DNA from: Anaerolineae bacterium
GTDB lineage: Bacteria > Chloroflexota > Anaerolineae > 4572-78 > J111
Reading direction: 5' to 3'
DNA length: 7,693 bases
Assembly (NCBI GenBank): GCA_020433785.1
Contig: JAGRCC010000098.1
Span: 1-7,693, forward strand
Below, piece by piece: positions 1 to 6,398 of this stretch. How positions within the stretch are numbered: position 1 is the stretch's first letter; each line of letters begins with the position of its first letter. The notes below the pieces were generated by a model, which was not told the origin of the DNA, did no database searches, and was given only the letters and a program-made list of their open reading frames with translations. Made by a program: the position numbers and the translations under genes.

Positions 1-3000
1 CGCTTCGAGCAGTCCTAGCTCATCGAGCGCGGGCGGCCGCAGCTCATAGACCAGCCGCCGGATGTCGGCCACCATCTGCTGGGTTTGGGCTTTCAACTGG
101 GACACGTGCTGCCCGGCGGTGGCGGGATCGCTGGTCAACATATCAAGAACAATGTCCAATTTGAGGGTTTGGCTGGCCAGGGTGGGGCCGAGGCCGTCGT
201 GCAGATCGCGGCGGATGCGGCGGCGCTCCTCCTCGCGGGCCAGCACCAGCTTTTCGCGAGAGCGCTGTAGGGCCAGGGTCAAGCGGGTAGCCGAGGCGAC
301 GGGGCCGGTCTGGGCGGCGATATCGGCCAGCAGTTGTTGCTCTTTAATCGTAAATTTCTCGCCGGGGGCGCGGGGTGACACCAGCAAACGGCCGACGGTT
401 TCTTTTTGGTAGCGTAACGGCAGCTCGACCGTCTCCCCAACCGGCTCGCCCACGGCGGCCTGTCCCACCTGCGTTTCCTGCTCGATCAGCTCGATGGCGG
501 CATAGGGCAGTTTGAGCGTGGCGGCAATGGTTTCGACAATCGAAGTCAGCGTCTCGGTCGGCACGGCGGTGGTTTGCAACTGCTGGCTCAGGTGGGAGAG
601 AACGGCGTAGGGATCGTCTCGCTGGCCGAACATGAAGCGGTTGACTCCCCGCTGGAGCCGCTCGCGGACGGGCTGGAAGGCAATGGCAATCAGGGCCGTG
701 GCCAGCAGAGAGATGACGAAGTTTCCTGAGGTTTGAAAGAGCAGGCCCAAGCCACCCACGGTCAGAATGTAAATCAAGACCACCGTCAGCGTCAGCCCAC
801 CGTAGACCAGGGTCCGATTGATGATGACGTCAATGTTCCACAGCTTATAGCGAAAAATGGCGATGGCGATGGCAATTGGCAAGAAGTATTGCCCGAAAAA
901 TAAAAAAGTCCAACCACTTGCGTTGGCCAGGAGCCGCGGCCTGCCGCTGGGAATCGAGAGAGCACCCCCAAAGATAGGAACCCATAGAATGACGGTTAAA
1001 GCCAGGATCACTACGCCAAAGCTAATCCACTTTGTTTGCTGTCGTTCTACACTATTTGCCTGTTTGGCATAGCGGTAAACCTGGAAAACAATCGCTAAAA
1101 GGACAGCCCCAACACTTGTTGTGTTTACAAATGACGCTGCCCAATCTGGAAAGGGATAAACAACGTTTTGCAGCAATAAAGGGAACATGAGCACAAGAGT
1201 ACAGATCAGAGGAATGTAAGCCCAGCGAGGGGAAAAACGGCCGTTGGGCACCAGGTAGACAAAAGTCATCATGATGATTGGGCCGATAAATGCGGCAACT
1301 AATCCCGGAACGAAGAGAAGGGGATGGATCGAACCAAATTCGTCGCCACCTGAGTACAAGGAGAAGGGGATGACAATTAAGGCCAGGGAAACAGTTAACC
1401 CAAGCTTGCTCATCCCTTGCTGCCACAGGATGAGCAAGCCCAACGACAGGTAGATCAGTTGCCCCAGCACCACCCAAAAAAGCATGTAGAGGGCGTACTG
1501 TTGCAGGCTCAGCCCCCAGGATGAGAGCACAGCGACTTCTGCGGCTGAAACCGCCAACTGGTCGCAGCCGCCAAACATCCCCAACGGCCCCGTACACACG
1601 GTCAGGATGTGCGAGTAGTCCCTGACCAGATCGAAGCCTAACAGGGTGATGTGCAGCGAAGCGACCAAAATCCAGCTCAGCAGCGCCAGCCAACGTACAA
1701 ACGGTCTTGATCGGGCCGGGTCGGTCATCTTCAGAGTTGGTTCGTTCATAGGCTCTCCAACGGGGGGTAAATCCGGCACAGCTATAACGCGGTCGACGGT
1801 GGCCTGTAATGAGCGATGGAGCGGGCGCACCCCAACGGCCACAATGCCGGTTGCCAGCACCAGGCCCATAACTTGCCCCGACTGGTTGGCGGTCACGGTA
1901 CTGATGCCGCCTACGAGGAAGACATATACAACGGTGATAAGTAGGGTCAGGCCGCCATAGACCAGGGTGCGATTGATGATGATATCGATAGCATAGAGCC
2001 GGTATTTGAAGATGGCAATGCCTATAATAACAGGGAAGCCTAAAAAGACCACAAGGAGGATCAACACGTACCAAATCGAACTGAAAATCTCAGGGTAGAA
2101 GAAAGCGCCGGGTAGCTCAAAGAAAAGGAGTTGAGCCACGACGGCTGTTCCTAGAAAATAGGCCAGCCACTTCATCTGCTGCCGTTCATCGCCTAGCGAG
2201 CGCCTGAATCGAACAACCATGGCGGTGATACCCATCAGGCTTAGGGTAAGAAGGGTCAGGTTTGAACTGCTGCTGAAGAACGAATACCACCAGTCAGGCA
2301 AGTGCGCTATGCCGAAGGGATTTGCCACGTTAAATAAGGTTTCAAAGCCATTGTCCCGGCTTAAATCGGGCAGTAGGCCCATGGCTGCCCCATTGATCGC
2401 TACGCCAATGAGACCGGCCACGGTTATCCATTGCCACCGTGGCGACAAAAACTTGCCGGTGGGGTACATCATCGGCAATAAAATAAACATAGGAACGAGG
2501 GGAAAGAATACGCCAAAGCTGTAGCTAAACCAGGCCAGGTAAGCCGAACCAGGGGCCGCGATATGTCCTGCCAGGCCACAGCTGGCATAGAGGTCGGTAG
2601 CTCCTACACCCAGCAGACCGATGCCTATCCATAAGCAGAGCCAACCGATGCGGTTGTAAGGTTGATAGGCGAAAATGAGAACGCCCAGTATCGAAAAAGC
2701 CAGACTGCTGGCGGAGGCGATAGAAATGCCTGTGACTTCTAAGTAAGCAAACGCGGCACAGCCCGCCAGAATCAGTGAGACCATCACAAGTAGCGGTATC
2801 AGGGCGACCAGCAACAAGGCGATGGTGAGCCAACGTAAGTGGGGCTGGGACGGAGATCTGCGCCCTAAACTTGTCGAAGGCGGGCGGTTGGGAGGAGGAA
2901 GCGACTTGGTTGCCTTAAGAAGTTGTTCATCGATGGGGACCATAGGCGACACAGTCACAAAACGATTGACATTCATTTGCAAGGCGTGGTGTAAGGGGCG

Positions 3001-4059
3001 AATCCCGACAACCACAATCGCCGTGCCCACCACCAAGCCAATGACCTGGCCCGATTGATTAGCCGCCAGAGTCCCGATGCCGCCGACGAAGAGCACATAG
3101 GCAGCAGTGATGAGCAGGGTCAGGCCACCGTAAACCAGGGTGCGGTTGATGATGATGTCGATGGCGTACAGCCGATATTTGAAGATGGCGATGCCGATGA
3201 CGATGGGAAAGCCCAAAAAGACCAGCCACAGCACCACGTCAAACCAGGCGCTTTCAAGTAGCCGGGGATACCAGAAGGCCGCAGGTAAATTGAAAAAAAG
3301 CATCTGAATCCCAATCGCTATGGTCAAAAAGTAGGCCAGCCACTTCATCTGCTGCCGTTCATCGCCAACCGAGCGCCTAAACCGAACGACCATCGCGGCG
3401 ACGCCGACCAGGTTGAGGAAAACAAAGCTCAGATTTGTCAGGCTGTAAAAGACGGAAAACCACCAGCCTGGTAAAGGCAATACCCCCCAGGGGTTCGCCA
3501 CCGGGAAGCGATCCATGCCGTTGCTCCGACTCAAATCCGGAACCAGCCCCATCCCTGTGTAAATGAGAATAAGAACGATAAGACTGGCCACGGTAAACCA
3601 GCGCCAGCGGGGCGATAGAAACCGTCCGGTAGGGTAGACCATCGGCAGCAGAAAAATTAAAGGGAGAATGGCAAAGTTACCATAGCTGTACAATAACCAG
3701 GCCGCGTAAGCCTTTCCCGGTGCCGCAATTGTCCCGGCCAGACCACACTGCGCATAAAGATCGATGGCGTTATTTGTAGACAGGCAAAAACCGAGCACCA
3801 GACAGAGCCAGCCGATTCGATTGTGGGGCCGGTATCCAAAAATCAAACCGCCCAGAACGGCAAATGCCGGGCCGACGGTTAGACCGAGGGGCAGACGAGC
3901 CGACGCATCGTTAACCAAATAGGGGTCACAGCCGAGCAGCACTAACCAGCCCAGCGCCAATGGACCGGGCACCAGGGCCAGCAAAAACAAACCCACAGCC
4001 AACCAGCGTGAGCGATCTAAAGATGGAGCTAGGGTTTGAAAATTGTTTGATGCGGCCAT
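1..4059 (-). CDS. Giant sensor histidine kinase with three tandem membrane sensor modules, C-terminus cut off by the window edge
   Basis: One frame stays open from the ATG at 4059 to base 1 (1353 codons), with no stop in the window. Likely order: membrane module A (about residues 18-368), linker, module B (409-760), linker, module C (789-1143), GAF domain (about 1147-1265), then HisKA_3. The phospho-acceptor is His1287 in 'RRDLHDGLGPTL', after the basic stretch 'REEERRRIRRD'. The typical X-region 'YELRPPALDELGL' lies at about 1338-1350. The HATPase_c domain is expected beyond the edge. Kinases of this NarX/LiaS-like class autophosphorylate and pass phosphate to a LuxR-type response regulator; none is visible here. 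The first ten residues are hydrophilic and there is no signal peptide. The frame could start no earlier than 4092 because of an in-frame TAA at 4093-4095. No strong Shine-Dalgarno precedes 4059. Family members I know carry one such membrane region and total roughly 600-750 residues, so this protein is about twice as long. Kinase identity is very secure; the sensed signal is unknown. Confidence 0.93.
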   Translation of the reverse strand, partial: MAASNNFQTLAPSLDRSRWLAVGLFLLALVPGPLALGWLVLLGCDPYLVNDASARLPLGLTVGPAFAVLGGLIFGYRPHNRIGWLCLVLGFCLSTNNAIDLYAQCGLAGTIAAPGKAYAAWLLYSYGNFAILPLIFLLPMVYPTGRFLSPRWRWFTVASLIVLILIYTGMGLVPDLSRSNGMDRFPVANPWGVLPLPGWWFSVFYSLTNLSFVFLNLVGVAAMVVRFRRSVGDERQQMKWLAYFLTIAIGIQMLFFNLPAAFWYPRLLESAWFDVVLWLVFLGFPIVIGIAIFKYRLYAIDIIINRTLVYGGLTLLITAAYVLFVGGIGTLAANQSGQVIGLVVGTAIVVVGIRPLHHALQMNVNRFVTVSPMVPIDEQLLKATKSLPPPNRPPSTSLGRRSPSQPHLRWLTIALLLVALIPLLVMVSLILAGCAAFAYLEVTGISIASASSLAFSILGVLIFAYQPYNRIGWLCLWIGIGLLGVGATDLYASCGLAGHIAAPGSAYLAWFSYSFGVFFPLVPMFILLPMMYPTGKFLSPRWQWITVAGLIGVAINGAAMGLLPDLSRDNGFETLFNVANPFGIAHLPDWWYSFFSSSSNLTLLTLSLMGITAMVVRFRRSLGDERQQMKWLAYFLGTAVVAQLLFFELPGAFFYPEIFSSIWYVLILLVVFLGFPVIIGIAIFKYRLYAIDIIINRTLVYGGLTLLITVVYVFLVGGISTVTANQSGQVMGLVLATGIVAVGVRPLHRSLQATVDRVIAVPDLPPVGEPMNEPTLKMTDPARSRPFVRWLALLSWILVASLHITLLGFDLVRDYSHILTVCTGPLGMFGGCDQLAVSAAEVAVLSSWGLSLQQYALYMLFWVVLGQLIYLSLGLLILWQQGMSKLGLTVSLALIVIPFSLYSGGDEFGSIHPLLFVPGLVAAFIGPIIMMTFVYLVPNGRFSPRWAYIPLICTLVLMFPLLLQNVVYPFPDWAASFVNTTSVGAVLLAIVFQVYRYAKQANSVERQQTKWISFGVVILALTVILWVPIFGGALSIPSGRPRLLANASGWTFLFFGQYFLPIAIAIAIFRYKLWNIDVIINRTLVYGGLTLTVVLIYILTVGGLGLLFQTSGNFVISLLATALIAIAFQPVRERLQRGVNRFMFGQRDDPYAVLSHLSQQLQTTAVPTETLTSIVETIAATLKLPYAAIELIEQETQVGQAAVGEPVGETVELPLRYQKETVGRLLVSPRAPGEKFTIKEQQLLADIAAQTGPVASATRLTLALQRSREKLVLAREEERRRIRRDLHDGLGPTLASQTLKLDIVLDMLTSDPATAGQHVSQLKAQTQQMVADIRRLVYELRPPALDELGLLEA
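631..1695 (-). repeat. Membrane sensor module C of the kinase, the canonical copy (residues 789-1143)
   Basis: This third module sits directly before GAF and HisKA_3 and looks like the membrane region of ordinary Chloroflexota kinases. It has a cysteine-bearing outer loop (C822, C832), 'GLSLQQYALYMLF', PNGRFSPRW (938-946), ERQQTKW (1005-1011), NIDVIINRTLVYGG (1075-1088) and the exit helix 'RERLQRGVNRFMFGQRDDPY' into GAF. Its first outer loop (about 807-851) is longer than in A and B. The cysteines are only ten residues apart, against about 60 in A and B, so it probably senses something different. Confidence 0.83.
1780..2835 (-). repeat. Membrane sensor module B of the kinase (residues 409-760)
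   Basis: This is the second copy of the ten-helix module and keeps the same landmarks as A: YQPYNRIGW (465-473), PTGKFLSPRW, ERQQMKW (625-631), INRTLVYGG (695-703), 'ANQSGQVMGL' and RPLHRSLQATVDR. The INRT motif lies exactly 391 codons (1173 bp) after that of A. The DNA at 1948-2062 is a close direct repeat of 3121-3235. C434 and C494 match C44 and C105 of A. The A-B similarity at DNA level points to duplication of A/B after their ancestor had separated from C. Confidence 0.85.
2862..2881. repeat. Degenerate copy of a dispersed short repeat inside the A-B linker
   Basis: The 20 bases 'gccctaaacttgtcgaaggc' differ at few positions from 'ccctgagcttgtcgaaggg', a short repeat I recall as abundant in Chloroflexota and some other genomes and often translated within hydrophilic linkers. 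Here it encodes the segment around 'PSTSLGR' in a Pro/Ser-rich linker between modules A and B, and it keeps the frame. The match to that family is from memory and is not tested. Confidence 0.4.
2956..4008 (-). repeat. Membrane sensor module A of the kinase (residues 18-368)
   Basis: About ten hydrophobic segments can be drawn (near residues 19-42, 58-75, 84-95, 117-140, 154-171, 201-222, 236-255, 272-292, 308-328, 338-353). Basic stretches fall on alternate sides: 'GYRPHNRIG', 'GRFLSPRWRW', 'RFRRSVGDERQQMKW' and 'KYRLYAIDIIINRT'. This fits N-in and C-in, so each module can insert independently. Hallmarks are PTGRFLSPRW (143-152), ERQQMKW (234-240), INRTLVYGG (304-312) and the closing RPLHHALQMNVNRF. 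C44 and C105 both fall on the predicted outer face. The module resembles B much more than C. Confidence 0.85.
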
Positions 4060-4103
4060 TGTTTTTCTAAAATTTAGGACTCGCCAATAGCATTACTTTA
4101 GTA

Positions 4104-4163
4104 GGAGATTGGAGACTGGTAATTAGAGATTAAACCATCTCCAATCTCTCGTCTCTAATCTCC
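4104..4163. repeat. Imperfect inverted repeat with 27-bp arms in the divergent intergenic region
   Basis: The left arm 4104-4130 (starting 'ggagattggagac') and right arm 4137-4163 can pair over 27 positions with about 20 matches. The outer 13 and inner 9 positions fit well, the middle 5 do not, and the loop is 6 nt. The arms are built from variants of 'gagattggaga' and 'gagattagaga', a composition I associate with dispersed intergenic repeats. It lies upstream of both divergent genes, so a terminator role for them is unlikely. The rest of 4060-4266 shows only the promoter given separately. Confidence 0.7.
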
Positions 4164-4193
4164 CAAACTGAAAGGTTAATCGTGGGCAGTTTC

Positions 4194-4224
4194 TTAGTAA
4201 GCTGACTCTAGGTTATGGTATAAT
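4194..4224 (+). promoter_or_regulatory. Extended -10 promoter of the toxin-antitoxin-like pair
   Basis: A perfect TATAAT at 4219-4224 is preceded by TGG (4216-4218), which makes an extended -10 element. A weak -35-like 'ttagta' at 4194-4199 leaves a 19-bp spacer. Transcription would begin near 4231, giving a leader of about 36 nt. A GGAG ribosome-binding site (4253-4256) lies 10 nt before the ATG at 4267. Confidence 0.65.
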
Positions 4225-4266
4225 AAATCCAACATAAAAGTTACTCAACTCTGGAGACCCTTATCC

Positions 4267-4575
4267 ATGGAAAACCAAGCGCAAGTGCAGGCTATTGAGG
4301 TTATTGCCATCAACCCCAACGTGCGGAATGGACGGCCTTACATTATCGGAACCTCAGTCACGGTGACCGATGTGGCGATGGCTAAGAATTATCATAACCA
4401 AGACGCCGATGGTATTGCCGATTGGTATGGCTTAACGCTGTCTCAGGTCTATGGCGCGTTGGCTTATTACTATGACCACAAAGCCGAATTAGATCAGACA
4501 ATTCGCGCCCAAATCAAACAGGCCGAAAACTTCAAAGAGAAACGCATTGGTAATGGAAATTCGCTTTTACCTTGA
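4267..4575 (+). CDS. DUF433-family antitoxin-like protein
   Basis: 102 residues. The family core is plain: 'INPNVRNGRPYIIGTSVTV' (about 16-34) matches the DUF433 signature (dP-v-GrP-I-GTRi-V). The helix-rich part 'GIADWYGLTLSQVYGALAYY' with 'DHKAELDQ' matches its helix-turn-helix-like second half. DUF433 proteins (COG2442) are predicted antitoxins, usually encoded just before a PIN-like DUF5615 protein, as here. The family role is to bind and restrain the nuclease and probably repress the shared promoter. There are about 15 extra N-terminal residues and a basic C-terminal tail beyond the compact family length. The last 23 bases overlap the downstream gene. The start at 4267 is backed by GGAG at 4253-4256 and an extended -10 promoter. 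Family assignment is confident; antitoxin activity is inferred from family and context. Confidence 0.88.
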   Translation: MENQAQVQAIEVIAINPNVRNGRPYIIGTSVTVTDVAMAKNYHNQDADGIADWYGLTLSQVYGALAYYYDHKAELDQTIRAQIKQAENFKEKRIGNGNSLLP

Positions 4576-4882
4576 TGAAAATGTGCCTATTGCTATAGCA
4601 ACGCAATTAAAAAGACGTGGTATTGAAGTTGTTACTGTTCGTGATTTAGAATTGCTTGGCGATAGCGATATCAATCATCTGCATCGAGCTACACAAATGG
4701 CCCATGTTCTATGCACGCACGATATTGACTACATTGAACTTGCGGTTAGCGGTTTAGAACATTCTGGTATTGTTTTTGGTCAGCAACATCGGCATGGTAT
4801 TGGCGATTGGGTCAGATTTCTTGAATTAGTCCATGCGGCGTATGAGCCTGAAGAGATGCGTAACCGTATTGAGTATGTCTAA
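4553..4882 (+). CDS. DUF5615 PIN-like nuclease, probable toxin partner
   Basis: 109 residues from the ATG at 4553. It opens with the diagnostic 'FYLDENVP' (5-12; acidic D8 and E9) and continues with 'VVTVRDLELLGDSD' (26-39; D31, D37, D39) and 'VLCTHDIDYIEL' (52-63; D57, D59). It ends in 'SGIVFGQQ' and the 'EEMRNRIEYV' tail. These match DUF5615 (COG4634), a PIN-like fold predicted to be an RNA-cleaving toxin. The acidic residues usually proposed as metal ligands are all present, so the copy looks intact. A TTG at 4547 would add two residues; ATG 4553 is preferred because it puts the family motif right at the N-terminus, as usual. The gene overlaps the antitoxin gene by 23 bp, implying coupled translation. 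It appears more A+T-rich than the kinase gene, consistent with acquisition as a module. Confidence 0.88.
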   Translation: MEIRFYLDENVPIAIATQLKRRGIEVVTVRDLELLGDSDINHLHRATQMAHVLCTHDIDYIELAVSGLEHSGIVFGQQHRHGIGDWVRFLELVHAAYEPEEMRNRIEYV

Positions 4883-4898
4883 TCACGCTCTAAAATCA

Positions 4899-5005
4899 GC
4901 ATAGTTTGATTCAAACGATGCGTCAAGTTTCAAACCGTTGCCATATCAAACTCATACACCCGGCTATCCCCCGCCAGATAGCGCAGGCCAATGGGCGCCA
5001 GGGCT
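4899..5005. repeat. 3'-end duplicate block, copy 1
   Basis: This stretch repeats 5729-5835 at about 88 percent identity by eye, including an unbroken 33-base match around the stop codon. It covers the last 25 or so codons of the membrane protein gene, the stop and about 30 bp beyond. Conservation of untranslated bases past the stop indicates a real DNA duplication or conversion tract, not protein-level selection alone. Confidence 0.8.
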
Positions 5006-5577
5006 GCCAGCCACAAAATGCCGGATAGAGGATACAATACATTCAGACCAAATTCGGTTTCAGTCACCTGAGCACCGGCAAAACATAGCCCGGCCAGTAT
5101 CAGCGCAATGGCTCCCCAAGTCGGAATGGTTTTGGTTCGCAAAAAGCCGCTGCCCAGAAAAATTGAGGTAAGCGGGAAGAAAAGGCAGACGAGACCGATG
5201 GCGAGGAAGGCTGGAGTCTCTGTCGCCATAATCGTTTGGTACAGTTCCCCTTCAACCCCGGCGGCGACAAGGACACCGCGCTGAATCCGGTTGCCCATCG
5301 CCATGACTCCGCAAGCGGCTCCCAGCAATCCGGTCAGAGTGCAAAATATCCCAAAGTAGGGTGCTTTTTGGCCTAAAAGCCGGGCCAGTTCCAGATAAAT
5401 TACGATAAACAGAATAGCGCCGTAGTACCCGATGATCCCTTCGGTGACGCTGCCGACGCCATCGGGTGTAACATTGATGGCCAGCACAAAGGTGAGGGCG
5501 GCGGCAATGAATAGTATCGGCCCCAGAATAAAGGCCAGGCCCAACGCTTTTTGTCGCAATATTTGATACGTATTCAT
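4930..5577 (-). CDS. Six-helix membrane protein, paralog 1 (unknown function)
   Basis: 215 residues with six hydrophobic helices (about 11-34, 49-69, 76-98, 121-146, 153-170, 180-200) and a short polar C-terminus ending 'YEFDMATV'. I do not recognise a named family with confidence; the start and layout recall DUF4386-like proteins, but this is weak. It is a clear paralog of the next upstream gene: the first 20 residues and last 25 are nearly identical, as are 'LARLLGQKAP' and the matching stretch there. ATG 5577 is chosen over ATG 5589. The sequence GGAGAG just upstream of 5577 is then the ribosome-binding site, and the same GGAGAACACA-ATG layout precedes the paralog, whose protein starts at the same MNTYQ. 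It has its own candidate promoter (5624-5653). No catalytic motif is visible. Confidence 0.85.
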   Translation of the reverse strand: MNTYQILRQKALGLAFILGPILFIAAALTFVLAINVTPDGVGSVTEGIIGYYGAILFIVIYLELARLLGQKAPYFGIFCTLTGLLGAACGVMAMGNRIQRGVLVAAGVEGELYQTIMATETPAFLAIGLVCLFFPLTSIFLGSGFLRTKTIPTWGAIALILAGLCFAGAQVTETEFGLNVLYPLSGILWLAALAPIGLRYLAGDSRVYEFDMATV

Positions 5578-5587
5578 TGTGCTCTCC
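5513..5587. repeat. 5'-end duplicate block, copy 1
   Basis: 75 bp covering the ribosome-binding site and first 22 or so codons. It matches 6334-6408 with about 11 differences, while the coding middle of the two genes has diverged far more. Confidence 0.8.
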
Positions 5588-5623
5588 ATTTGTATAGGTT
5601 TTTGAGAATTGTTAATTCTTTGT

Positions 5624-5728: not shown

Positions 5729-5835
5729 GCATAGTATGCTTCAAACGACACGTCAAGTTTCAAACCGTTGCCATATCAAACTCGTAGGCCTGACTATCAC
5801 CCGCCAGATAACGCAGGCCAATGGGAGCCAGAGCA
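5729..5835. repeat. 3'-end duplicate block, copy 2
   Basis: This is the partner of 4899-5005 and covers the end and stop codon of membrane protein paralog 2 plus about 30 bp beyond it. Similarity stops abruptly at 5729, next to the palindrome at 5690-5721. Confidence 0.8.
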
Positions 5836-6398
5836 ATCAGGAAGGCAAGGTGTGATAGGAGCGTTAAGCTTTTTTCGATAAACTCTGCGCCACCATTCAC
5901 GCCAACAAAGAAAAGCAGCGAACCAACAATGAGCAATCCTGCTGCCCAACGGGGAATCCCACCCTGCCAGAGGAGGCCAACACCTAATAAAAGCAACCCA
6001 ATGATTGACAGCAACGACGGTAGCATCAGCACGAGTAAACCGGGCATAGCTTCCATAATGGTCCAAATTGACTCATCCAGACCGGCATTGATCATACCCG
6101 CCTGCATCGTCCTGGCGGCAGCCGGTATAACGGATATGCCCCAGCCCAGCCCAAGGATCGCACAGATCAACCCGAACAGCGGCGCACGCTGCCCCAGAAT
6201 GCGGGATAGCTCCCACACAACGGGGATCATGATTAAGAGGCCATAGGCCATAAAAATACCATCGACCCAACTGTACGGATTATTCGGGGAGCGGCCAATC
6301 CCCATCATATAGGAGACTGAGCCAACTATGGTCAGCAGCGGCCCCAGAATAAAGGCCAGACCTACCATTTTTTGTTGCAACGTTTGATACGTATTCAT
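5760..6398 (-). CDS. Six-helix membrane protein, paralog 2 (unknown function)
   Basis: 212 residues with six hydrophobic helices (about 11-34, 47-66, 73-94, 117-144, 150-168, 178-197). It shares the MNTYQ start, the 'VGLAFILGP' first helix, 'ELSRILGQRAPLFGL' and the C-terminus 'ALAPIGLRYLAGDS' plus 'YEFDMATV' with paralog 1; the loops and helices between differ widely. A strong AGGAGA ribosome-binding site lies just before ATG 6398. The gap to the upstream lipoprotein gene is 100 bp and lacks the promoter block seen before the other two genes. It may therefore be read through from the lipoprotein gene, although a hairpin lies between them. No enzymatic motif is visible, and I cannot assign a function beyond integral membrane protein. 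Confidence 0.85.
   Translation of the reverse strand: MNTYQTLQQKMVGLAFILGPLLTIVGSVSYMMGIGRSPNNPYSWVDGIFMAYGLLIMIPVVWELSRILGQRAPLFGLICAILGLGWGISVIPAAARTMQAGMINAGLDESIWTIMEAMPGLLVLMLPSLLSIIGLLLLGVGLLWQGGIPRWAAGLLIVGSLLFFVGVNGGAEFIEKSLTLLSHLAFLIALAPIGLRYLAGDSQAYEFDMATV

Follow-up and report, generated by a model that had tools for sequence, protein, structure and literature searches.

The window analysed here, a stretch of 7,693 nucleotides from an Anaerolineae bacterium (assembly GCA_020433785.1, contig JAGRCC010000098.1), encodes on its minus strand a histidine kinase in which three complete predicted membrane sensor modules, A, B and C, stand in line before one GAF-like/HisKA_3 core. On the evidence of sequence comparison with relatives, the N-terminal parts of such modules have been exchanged between kinase positions and the tails are bound to their position. 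We consider it somewhat probable (roughly 0.6) that this protein is a ComP-like and probably multi-input kinase, whose input cassettes are exchangeable and sit on connectors specific to their position.

The initial annotation of this DNA had proposed a single open frame of 1353 codons with no stop inside the window, three tandem ten-helix modules with an even helix count and an N-in/C-in charge bias, and one HisKA_3 domain. All of this was borne out. The frame begins with an ATG at position 4059 and is stop-free to window base 1, hence its 3' end is truncated by the end of the contig. Using a 19-residue hydropathy window and a threshold of 1.3, we detected 30 peaks in the membrane part, ten in each module (residues 24-357 in A, 413-748 in B and 791-1131 in C); one extra weak peak at 1174-1192 (score 1.35) lies in the cytoplasmic region and was excluded from the helix count. 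Assuming strictly alternating sides, K+R make up 54 of 317 residues in the predicted inside loops and 9 of 263 in the outside loops, with 19 D+E on either side, and this positive-inside bias suggests that each module is N-in/C-in. HisKA_3 (PF07730), the domain of NarL-family sensor kinases, matches residues 1278-1345 with an E-value of 7.3e-15. The GAF domain that had also been proposed stands as a GAF-like region by homology: no Pfam GAF model matches the window protein at E ≤ 1, and the region is 36% identical to the same region of a relative, P0041, which does match GAF. The missing 3' part very likely encodes HATPase_c, as in the relatives P0002 and P0003 (for P0002 from precomputed domains); HATPase_c was also found at L002, the locus of a single-module kinase.

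We cut every module at the motif INRTLVYGG, in the cytoplasmic loop between transmembrane helices (TM) 8 and 9, such that the N-part comprises TM1-8 and the tail comprises TM9-10 and a juxtamembrane stretch. This motif is present in each of A, B and C, as had been described. A second landmark, reported as PxGxF-SPRW, is likewise found in all three, but its exact form is PTGRFLSPRW in A, PTGKFLSPRW in B and PNGRF-SPRW in C. Modules A and B are 58-59% identical as proteins and 69% identical as DNA over 781 aligned nucleotides (nt); C is 34-36% identical to A or B, over about the C-terminal 60% only. These levels indicate old, diverged copies, with C carrying a different N-part type, and the low A-B DNA identity rules out a recent tandem duplication. 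The description of the modules as complete copies has to be qualified: A and B are paralogous, and C differs in both N-part type and tail type. Measured between hydropathy peaks, the cytoplasmic linkers behind A and B are 55 and 42 residues long. On the window modules all Pfam and NCBIfam models stay below their cut-offs, as do all Pfam models on seven stand-alone modules of other genomes; annotation can therefore easily miss this family. Comparison by sequence with solved structures gave two weak matches only (E-values 0.17 and 5.9), which we take as chance.

Exchange of N-parts between modules

Close relatives of the window kinase are mosaics with respect to its N-parts (A_N, B_N and C_N) and tails. 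In P0002, the first module joins A_N (95.5% identical) to a B tail (91.5%, against 69% to the A tail), followed by C_N (93%), the C tail (100%) and the kinase (98.5%). P0003 starts with A_N and the A tail (93% each); its second N-part is 49% identical to C_N and 26% to B_N, yet it sits on a B tail (94%), and its third N-part (48% to C_N) precedes a C tail (89%) and a kinase (97.5%) of the window type. The first N-part of P0006 is 55% identical to A_N and is also joined to a B tail (97%), such that this tail type, at 91-97% identity, stands behind other N-parts in P0002, P0003 and P0006. P0007, on another contig, repeats the order A tail-B_N-B tail at 94-99% identity (B_N 99%), and its third N-part differs from that of the window (48% to C_N). 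P0008 has a C-type N-part (49%) first and a B-type N-part (60%) last. All three window N-parts have counterparts that serve as the sole sensor of a single-module kinase: A_N is 78% identical to the sensor of P0154, C_N shares 78% identity with the sensor of P0121, and B_N 63% with that of L002. The kinase parts of these three proteins are 83-92% identical to that of the window (P0121 90%, P0154 92%). At the nucleotide level, the L002 kinase, on a 2.4-Mb contig, is B-like up to the motif (72.7%) and C-like after it (77.6%), with an overlap of 45 nt. A pool of near-identical paralogues within one genome as the source of such mosaics is unsupported in genome G001, which has one close kinase, the next being 50% identical; donors of exchanged N-parts may lie in other strains.

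We compared last N-parts and kinase regions (GAF/HisKA) pairwise in 222 of 236 proteins that have both in full (14 were dropped; 24,531 pairs). Where the kinases are alike, identity of the last N-part is two-peaked. For the 43 pairs with kinases at least 95% identical, the last N-parts are at least 90% identical in 32, 50-90% in 3 and below 50% in 8; where kinases are 90-95% identical, 60 of 140 pairs have last N-parts below 40%. With both contigs at least 15 kb (69 proteins, 2346 pairs), N-parts are below 40% identity in 15 of the 32 pairs whose kinases are at least 85% identical. We then fitted breakpoints in pairs with a kinase identity of at least 85% and an N-part identity below 45%, and 199 of 287 fell between -20 and +15 residues from the start of the motif. 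Thirty-three disjoint pairs gave 19 breakpoints at -10 to +1, 8 at +24 to +40, and 6 at +59 to +63, the end of the tail.

A case at the DNA level is provided by a two-module kinase found at L003 (genome G002) and L004 (genome G003), on contigs of 161 and 118 kb. The proportion of synonymous differences (pS) between the two is 0.04 across the second N-part and rises to 0.49 from the second motif onwards. Across codons 361-690 they differ at 0-7 positions per 90 bases (0-2 in 9 of 11 blocks), and the next block has 24 differences; the clustered differing codons start at 685, immediately behind INRTLVYGSLT (673-683). The first N-part is intermediate (pS 0.22) and is most diverged in its first 90 codons. 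Control single-module kinases from the same genome pair are uniform, with 98% identity in the N-part and 94% in the kinase for L012/L014, and 98% and 95% for L015/L018. The kinase part of L004 is only 72% identical to that of L003, whereas L003 is 86-89% identical to L001 and L091; since L004 is the odd one, this is most simply read as a replacement that took place in the G003 lineage.

Tails as a record of module position

To compare how closely N-parts and tails follow module position, we built FastTree trees of both from 354 modules, 131 of them non-terminal, and counted changes between terminal and non-terminal position against 100 label shuffles each. Position changes 2 times on the tail tree (shuffles: mean 104.8, minimum 93) and 57 times on the N-part tree (mean 105.8, minimum 94). 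A set of 410 kinase-terminal or non-terminal modules gave 3 changes for tails and 64 for N-parts. Pairs that are at least 70% identical stand in different positions in 103 of 599 cases for N-parts and in 0 of 4,716 for tails. Clustering the N-parts at 70% identity yielded 48 multi-member clusters, 12 of which contain both positions (10-12 at thresholds of 50-75%); thus, the same N-part family would act as the sole sensor in one kinase and as an upstream sensor in another. In eleven cross-position N-part pairs, which come from few families, both contigs are at least 15 kb long. The first module of P0015 (118-kb contig) and the sole module of P0234 (171-kb contig) share 89% identity in their N-parts and 48% in their tails. 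We conclude from these sequence comparisons that tails are position-specific, with a near-complete memory of position, and that N-parts keep some memory of position and change it often.

Several observations weigh against a simple division into mobile N-parts and fixed tails with a single exchange point. N-parts are partly position-bound, their 57 changes being about half the shuffled value; moreover, tree error contributes to this number, which makes the 12 mixed clusters the safer lower bound. When five position/context labels are used, the N-part tree has 88 changes and the tail tree rises to 14, and tail pairs at least 60% identical do cross positions in 121 of 18,044 cases. A rise in proline after non-terminal tails, expected from the window, was not found (0.074 vs 0.077). 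Breakpoints lie further downstream than the motif in 14 of the 33 disjoint pairs; the conserved motif attracts the fit, limiting resolution to about -10 to +20 residues, and pairs in both the identity and the breakpoint counts share proteins and hence are non-independent. Divergence of L003 and L004 past the break is uneven (8-24 differences per 90 bases to codon 870, 8-29 if counted to codon 900, and 23-45 beyond), which suggests that more than one exchange may be involved. Within the window gene, codon identity at shared motif residues is raised for A-B (15 of 26) and A-C (11 of 19), but not clearly for B-C (7 of 19), an unevenness that falls short of demonstrating recent conversion there. 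Lastly, relatives entered the set through their similarity to the window or P0066, and the majority lie on short metagenome contigs.

Proposed coupling of three sensor modules to one kinase

In the reading that we favour, A and B bear the in-line (non-terminal) connector and the last module alone the kinase-coupled one. Because the last tail continues directly into the GAF-like region, module C is, judging by sequence, the one joined mechanically to the kinase. Recombination would replace, add and remove cassettes, with breakpoints mostly at or near INRTLVYGG and in the remaining cases inside the tail or at its end, such that the number and identity of sensors would vary while the kinase stays nearly constant. 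A and B would be working sensors; we argue this from purifying selection on the non-terminal module in the L003/L004 pair, the one pair tested (ratio of non-synonymous to synonymous substitution, dN/dS, 0.38 in the N-part and 0.17 in the tail), and from the occurrence of the same N-part families as sole sensors. If they matter, they would act on C sideways in the membrane or via the linkers. Their state might reach the kinase by side-by-side packing of helices onto C, in a dimer of ~60 helices, packing between modules being a guess. We infer a multi-input function for the triple-module kinase on this basis. Its partner is probably a LuxR-type response regulator, since a Response_reg + GerE gene lies directly behind the kinase of the syntenic relative L002; in the window, the corresponding place falls beyond the contig end.

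If A and B were leftover duplicates or a membrane scaffold, only C would sense and drive the kinase. The presence on C alone of a terminal tail running into the GAF-like region fits such passive extras, as do P0121 and P0154, whose kinase parts indicate that A and B are dispensable for a kinase of this kind. We nonetheless regard this explanation as unlikely, because the landmarks are retained in A and B, the non-terminal module is under purifying selection in the one pair L003/L004, and other kinases have N-parts of these families as their sole sensors. The modules could instead bind the same or closely similar signals, and thereby raise gain or avidity rather than the range of inputs. The 58-59% identity of A and B is compatible with a shared ligand class; C, however, has another N-part type, and neighbouring N-parts are of different types in relatives such as P0003 and P0008, so we judge an amplifier to be less likely still.

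The initial annotation had raised assembly error as a possible source of the triple, and misjoining of near-identical metagenome kinase genes could create false mosaics as well. The window and many of its relatives do lie on short metagenome contigs, and the tail and kinase sequences of paralogues are close enough to confuse assemblers. Yet A and B differ at ~31% of aligned bases, and the joins in the window gene recur on other contigs: P0003 has A_N-A tail, P0007 has A tail-B_N-B tail, and P0002 has B tail-C_N-C tail-kinase. Triples also occur on long contigs of 220 kb (P0031) and 131 kb (P0053), and mosaics persist when both contigs are at least 15 kb, and between two contigs of more than 100 kb. 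We therefore consider an artefact very improbable.

Among the known kinases closest to the window kinase is ComP of Bacillus, which, like each window module, has ten predicted helices with an N-in/C-in topology, followed by HisKA/HATPase (PMC9620489). Earlier counts gave ComP eight helices, and a PDZ fold is predicted between its helices 1 and 2 (PMC9620489). The likeness rests on topology and domain order as described, rather than on sequence alignment. ComP has one module, whereas the window kinase has three and a GAF-like region before the kinase; nor does the PDZ fold have a counterpart in the window modules, Pfam PDZ models giving no match to the window protein at E ≤ 1. Among the relatives, P0034, P0035 and P0105 have a PDZ_6 match within residues 73-124, before the core of the first module; of these matches, only that of P0105 exceeds the curated cut-off. 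Single-module HisKA_3 kinases of Chloroflexota (P0121-P0127, P0154, L002) share the tail type, the GAF-like region, the kinase and N-parts of the A, B or C families, and differ from the window protein in having one module rather than three. Tandem sensors are known in soluble form, as PDC domains in DctB and LuxQ, PBPb domains in BvgS/EvgS and PAS domains in FixL (PMC8534201); these kinases also have several sensor units each, but the window kinase repeats whole ten-helix membrane modules.

Swapping of input domains is a recognised mode of kinase evolution, described as rare in PMC4603909 and as common in PMC10804942. The exchange described here differs from known domain shuffling in that it often takes place within the membrane module, at a single conserved loop that divides a mobile cassette from a connector tied to its position. 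Section 6 of PMC10804942 mentions in passing kinases that have many small, repeated transmembrane units, and gives no family, module boundary, position rule or lineage there. Among the open-licence PMC papers listed, we found no description of tandem ten-helix sensors, position-bound tails or the motif as an exchange point. 

The family offers a concrete system for studying how one kinase core reads a chain of several polytopic sensors. In the laboratory, sensor kinases are commonly made chimeric by joining parts at the kinase boundary through trial and error. In this family, such exchanges seem to have occurred repeatedly during evolution, most frequently at a single loop within a polytopic membrane sensor, which suggests a testable rule for joining membrane sensors to kinases, including which connector fits which position.

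Relatives, other outputs and neighbouring genes

A whole-protein search, with candidates limited to 0.55-1.75 times the query length, identified 819 proteins at E ≤ 1e-10 among 7995 scored candidates. Applied to the best 120 of the 819, the core model assigned three modules to 22 proteins, two to 92 and one to 6; the 22 include the window protein itself and the partial protein P0007, and single-module kinases are under-counted owing to the length limit. A second search, with module C and the kinase as query, matched 6150 proteins; the 120 listed included 116 new ones, with one module match in 111 and two in 5, some of them split. A third search, whose query was a single module taken from a triple, added P0264, a kinase of 1767 amino acids (aa) with three full modules and one that is cut, and the nSTAND1/AAA_22 proteins described below. 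Altogether, the 320 listed proteins, including the window, comprise 116 with one module, 165 with two, 32 with three, 2 with four, 1 with five, and 4 with none above the cut-off. The assertion that known kinases of this class have one module therefore fails, and the window triple is not unique; double and triple architectures, for which the annotation had suggested searching other Chloroflexota, are both numerous there. Four of the two-module kinases (P0048, P0054, P0055 and P0069) have an additional acetyltransferase (GNAT) domain.

Among the listed proteins, all named taxa belong to the Chloroflexota (Anaerolineae, Anaerolineales, Chloroflexaceae, Candidatus Leptofilum, Chloroploca and Promineifilaceae). 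A module match at E ≤ 1e-12 was detected in 97 of 301 genomes from the phylum of G001, with at most 9 candidates scored per genome. Close relatives occur in 3 of 12 genomes of its family (E ≤ 1e-30) and in 59 of 396 of its class (E ≤ 1e-50). The best match to the window kinase in these family and class genomes is 82% identical, which indicates that the window's species is absent from the genomes searched. Weaker relatives lie on plasmids: nine of 72,556 plasmid records match, from Deinococcus, Streptomyces, Embleya, Nonomuraea, Alicyclobacillus and Candidatus Chlorohelix. Identity is under 60% in every case, and no match spans 80% of the query.

The modules are also found with other outputs. 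P0268, P0270, P0271, P0272 and P0290 (1731-2737 aa) have two to five modules and end in nSTAND1/AAA_22 instead of a kinase, and thus account for four- and five-module proteins; GAF-family matches are present in the four nSTAND1-type proteins scanned. Six proteins of ~915 aa (P0294, P0298, P0301, P0303, P0304 and P0310) have two modules and are listed without a kinase domain; the contig of P0303 is 1.4 Mb long. Stand-alone module genes form rows in three genomes, at L073, L074 and L072. All 12 neighbour pairs in the L073 array overlap, by 1-31 bases (stop codon excluded, first possible starts), as do 4 of 6 in the L074 array; some L072 frames are over-long, their starts having been chosen mechanically. 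A GAF-SpoIIE-HATPase_c_2 protein adjoins the L072 and L074 arrays, and none was noticed among the flanking frames of L073, an 18-kb contig. A further gene of similar appearance, ~255 aa long and with no Pfam match above cut-off, also lies near both the L072 and L074 arrays. By eye, the stand-alone tails resemble those of the STAND proteins (…IDRRFYR…), unlike both kinase tail types. For the stand-alone label, the N-part tree shows 12 changes and the tail tree 2 (no shuffles), so that N-part exchange between kinases and stand-alone modules is only hinted at.

A wider proposal, which we put forward tentatively and with less confidence than the multi-input reading, is that these proteins form a natural combinatorial sensor kit in Chloroflexota, in which eight-helix cassettes are swapped, mostly at INRTLVYGG, onto connectors of three kinds (in-line, kinase-coupled, and stand-alone/STAND-type). 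Each cassette might then serve alone, in line (up to 5 modules per protein), or free-standing in gene arrays (13 overlapping genes on one contig). The GAF-linked outputs might be a histidine kinase, a STAND NTPase and perhaps the GAF-SpoIIE-HATPase switch beside two of the arrays. If so, the number and content of modules would be a fast-evolving trait that tunes what the cell perceives without altering the output.

Table 1. Positions of features in the window and of related genes at other loci
Feature	Position	Strand	Basis
Histidine kinase open frame, 3' end cut	1..4059	-	frame analysis, Pfam, hydropathy
Module A, residues 15-375, ten predicted helices, non-terminal	2935..4017	-	hydropathy, alignment, core model
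A N-part (TM1-8), putative exchangeable input cassette	3151..4017	-	comparison with relatives
A tail (INRTLVYGG, TM9-10, juxtamembrane stretch), non-terminal type	2935..3150	-	comparison, tail tree
INRTLVYGG of A, residue 304, N-part/tail junction	3124..3150	-	motif match
Module B, residues 403-768, ten predicted helices, non-terminal	1756..2853	-	hydropathy, alignment, core model
B N-part (TM1-8)	1978..2853	-	comparison with relatives
B tail, non-terminal type	1762..1977	-	comparison with relatives
INRTLVYGG of B, residue 695, N-part/tail junction	1951..1977	-	motif match
Module C, residues 786-1150, ten predicted helices, terminal, other N-part type	610..1704	-	hydropathy, alignment, core model
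C N-part (TM1-8)	823..1704	-	comparison with relatives
C tail, kinase-coupled (terminal) type, continues into GAF-like region	610..822	-	comparison, tail tree
INRTLVYGG of C, residue 1080, N-part/tail junction	796..822	-	motif match
GAF-like region, residues 1151-1262	274..609	-	homology to relative, no direct Pfam match
HisKA_3 dimerisation/phosphoacceptor domain, residues 1278-1345	25..228	-	Pfam match
DUF433 and DUF5615 (PIN-like) overlapping genes, between kinase and membrane proteins	4267-4575 and 4547-4882	+	frames, Pfam
Membrane protein upstream of kinase, paralogue 1	4930-5589	-	frame, alignment
Membrane protein upstream of kinase, paralogue 2	5760-6398	-	frame, alignment
Stand-alone array, 13 genes	L073 (G041:C176) 469-16430		module matches
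Stand-alone array, 7 genes	L074 7013-15781		module matches
Stand-alone array, 11 matching frames	L072 3564-17922		module matches
GAF-SpoIIE-HATPase_c_2 protein adjoining array	L072 1848-3500	-	Pfam
GAF-SpoIIE-HATPase_c_2 protein adjoining array	L074 3349-5094	+	Pfam

Upstream of the kinase, the window contains the DUF433/DUF5615 genes, which we take to resemble a toxin-antitoxin pair, and two genes for membrane proteins. Rfam and transfer RNA scans of the window found nothing. A scan of positions 3950-5000 gave no terminator and 4 promoter-like sites against 2.0 expected, which we did not use as evidence. The two membrane proteins are 42% identical to each other, and paralogue 2 is 53% identical to a protein upstream of the single-module kinase in L002, indicating that the neighbourhood of the kinase is partly conserved. 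In L002, the first upstream membrane-protein gene (3204-3847) is split over two overlapping frames, which represents either a true break or a sequencing error.

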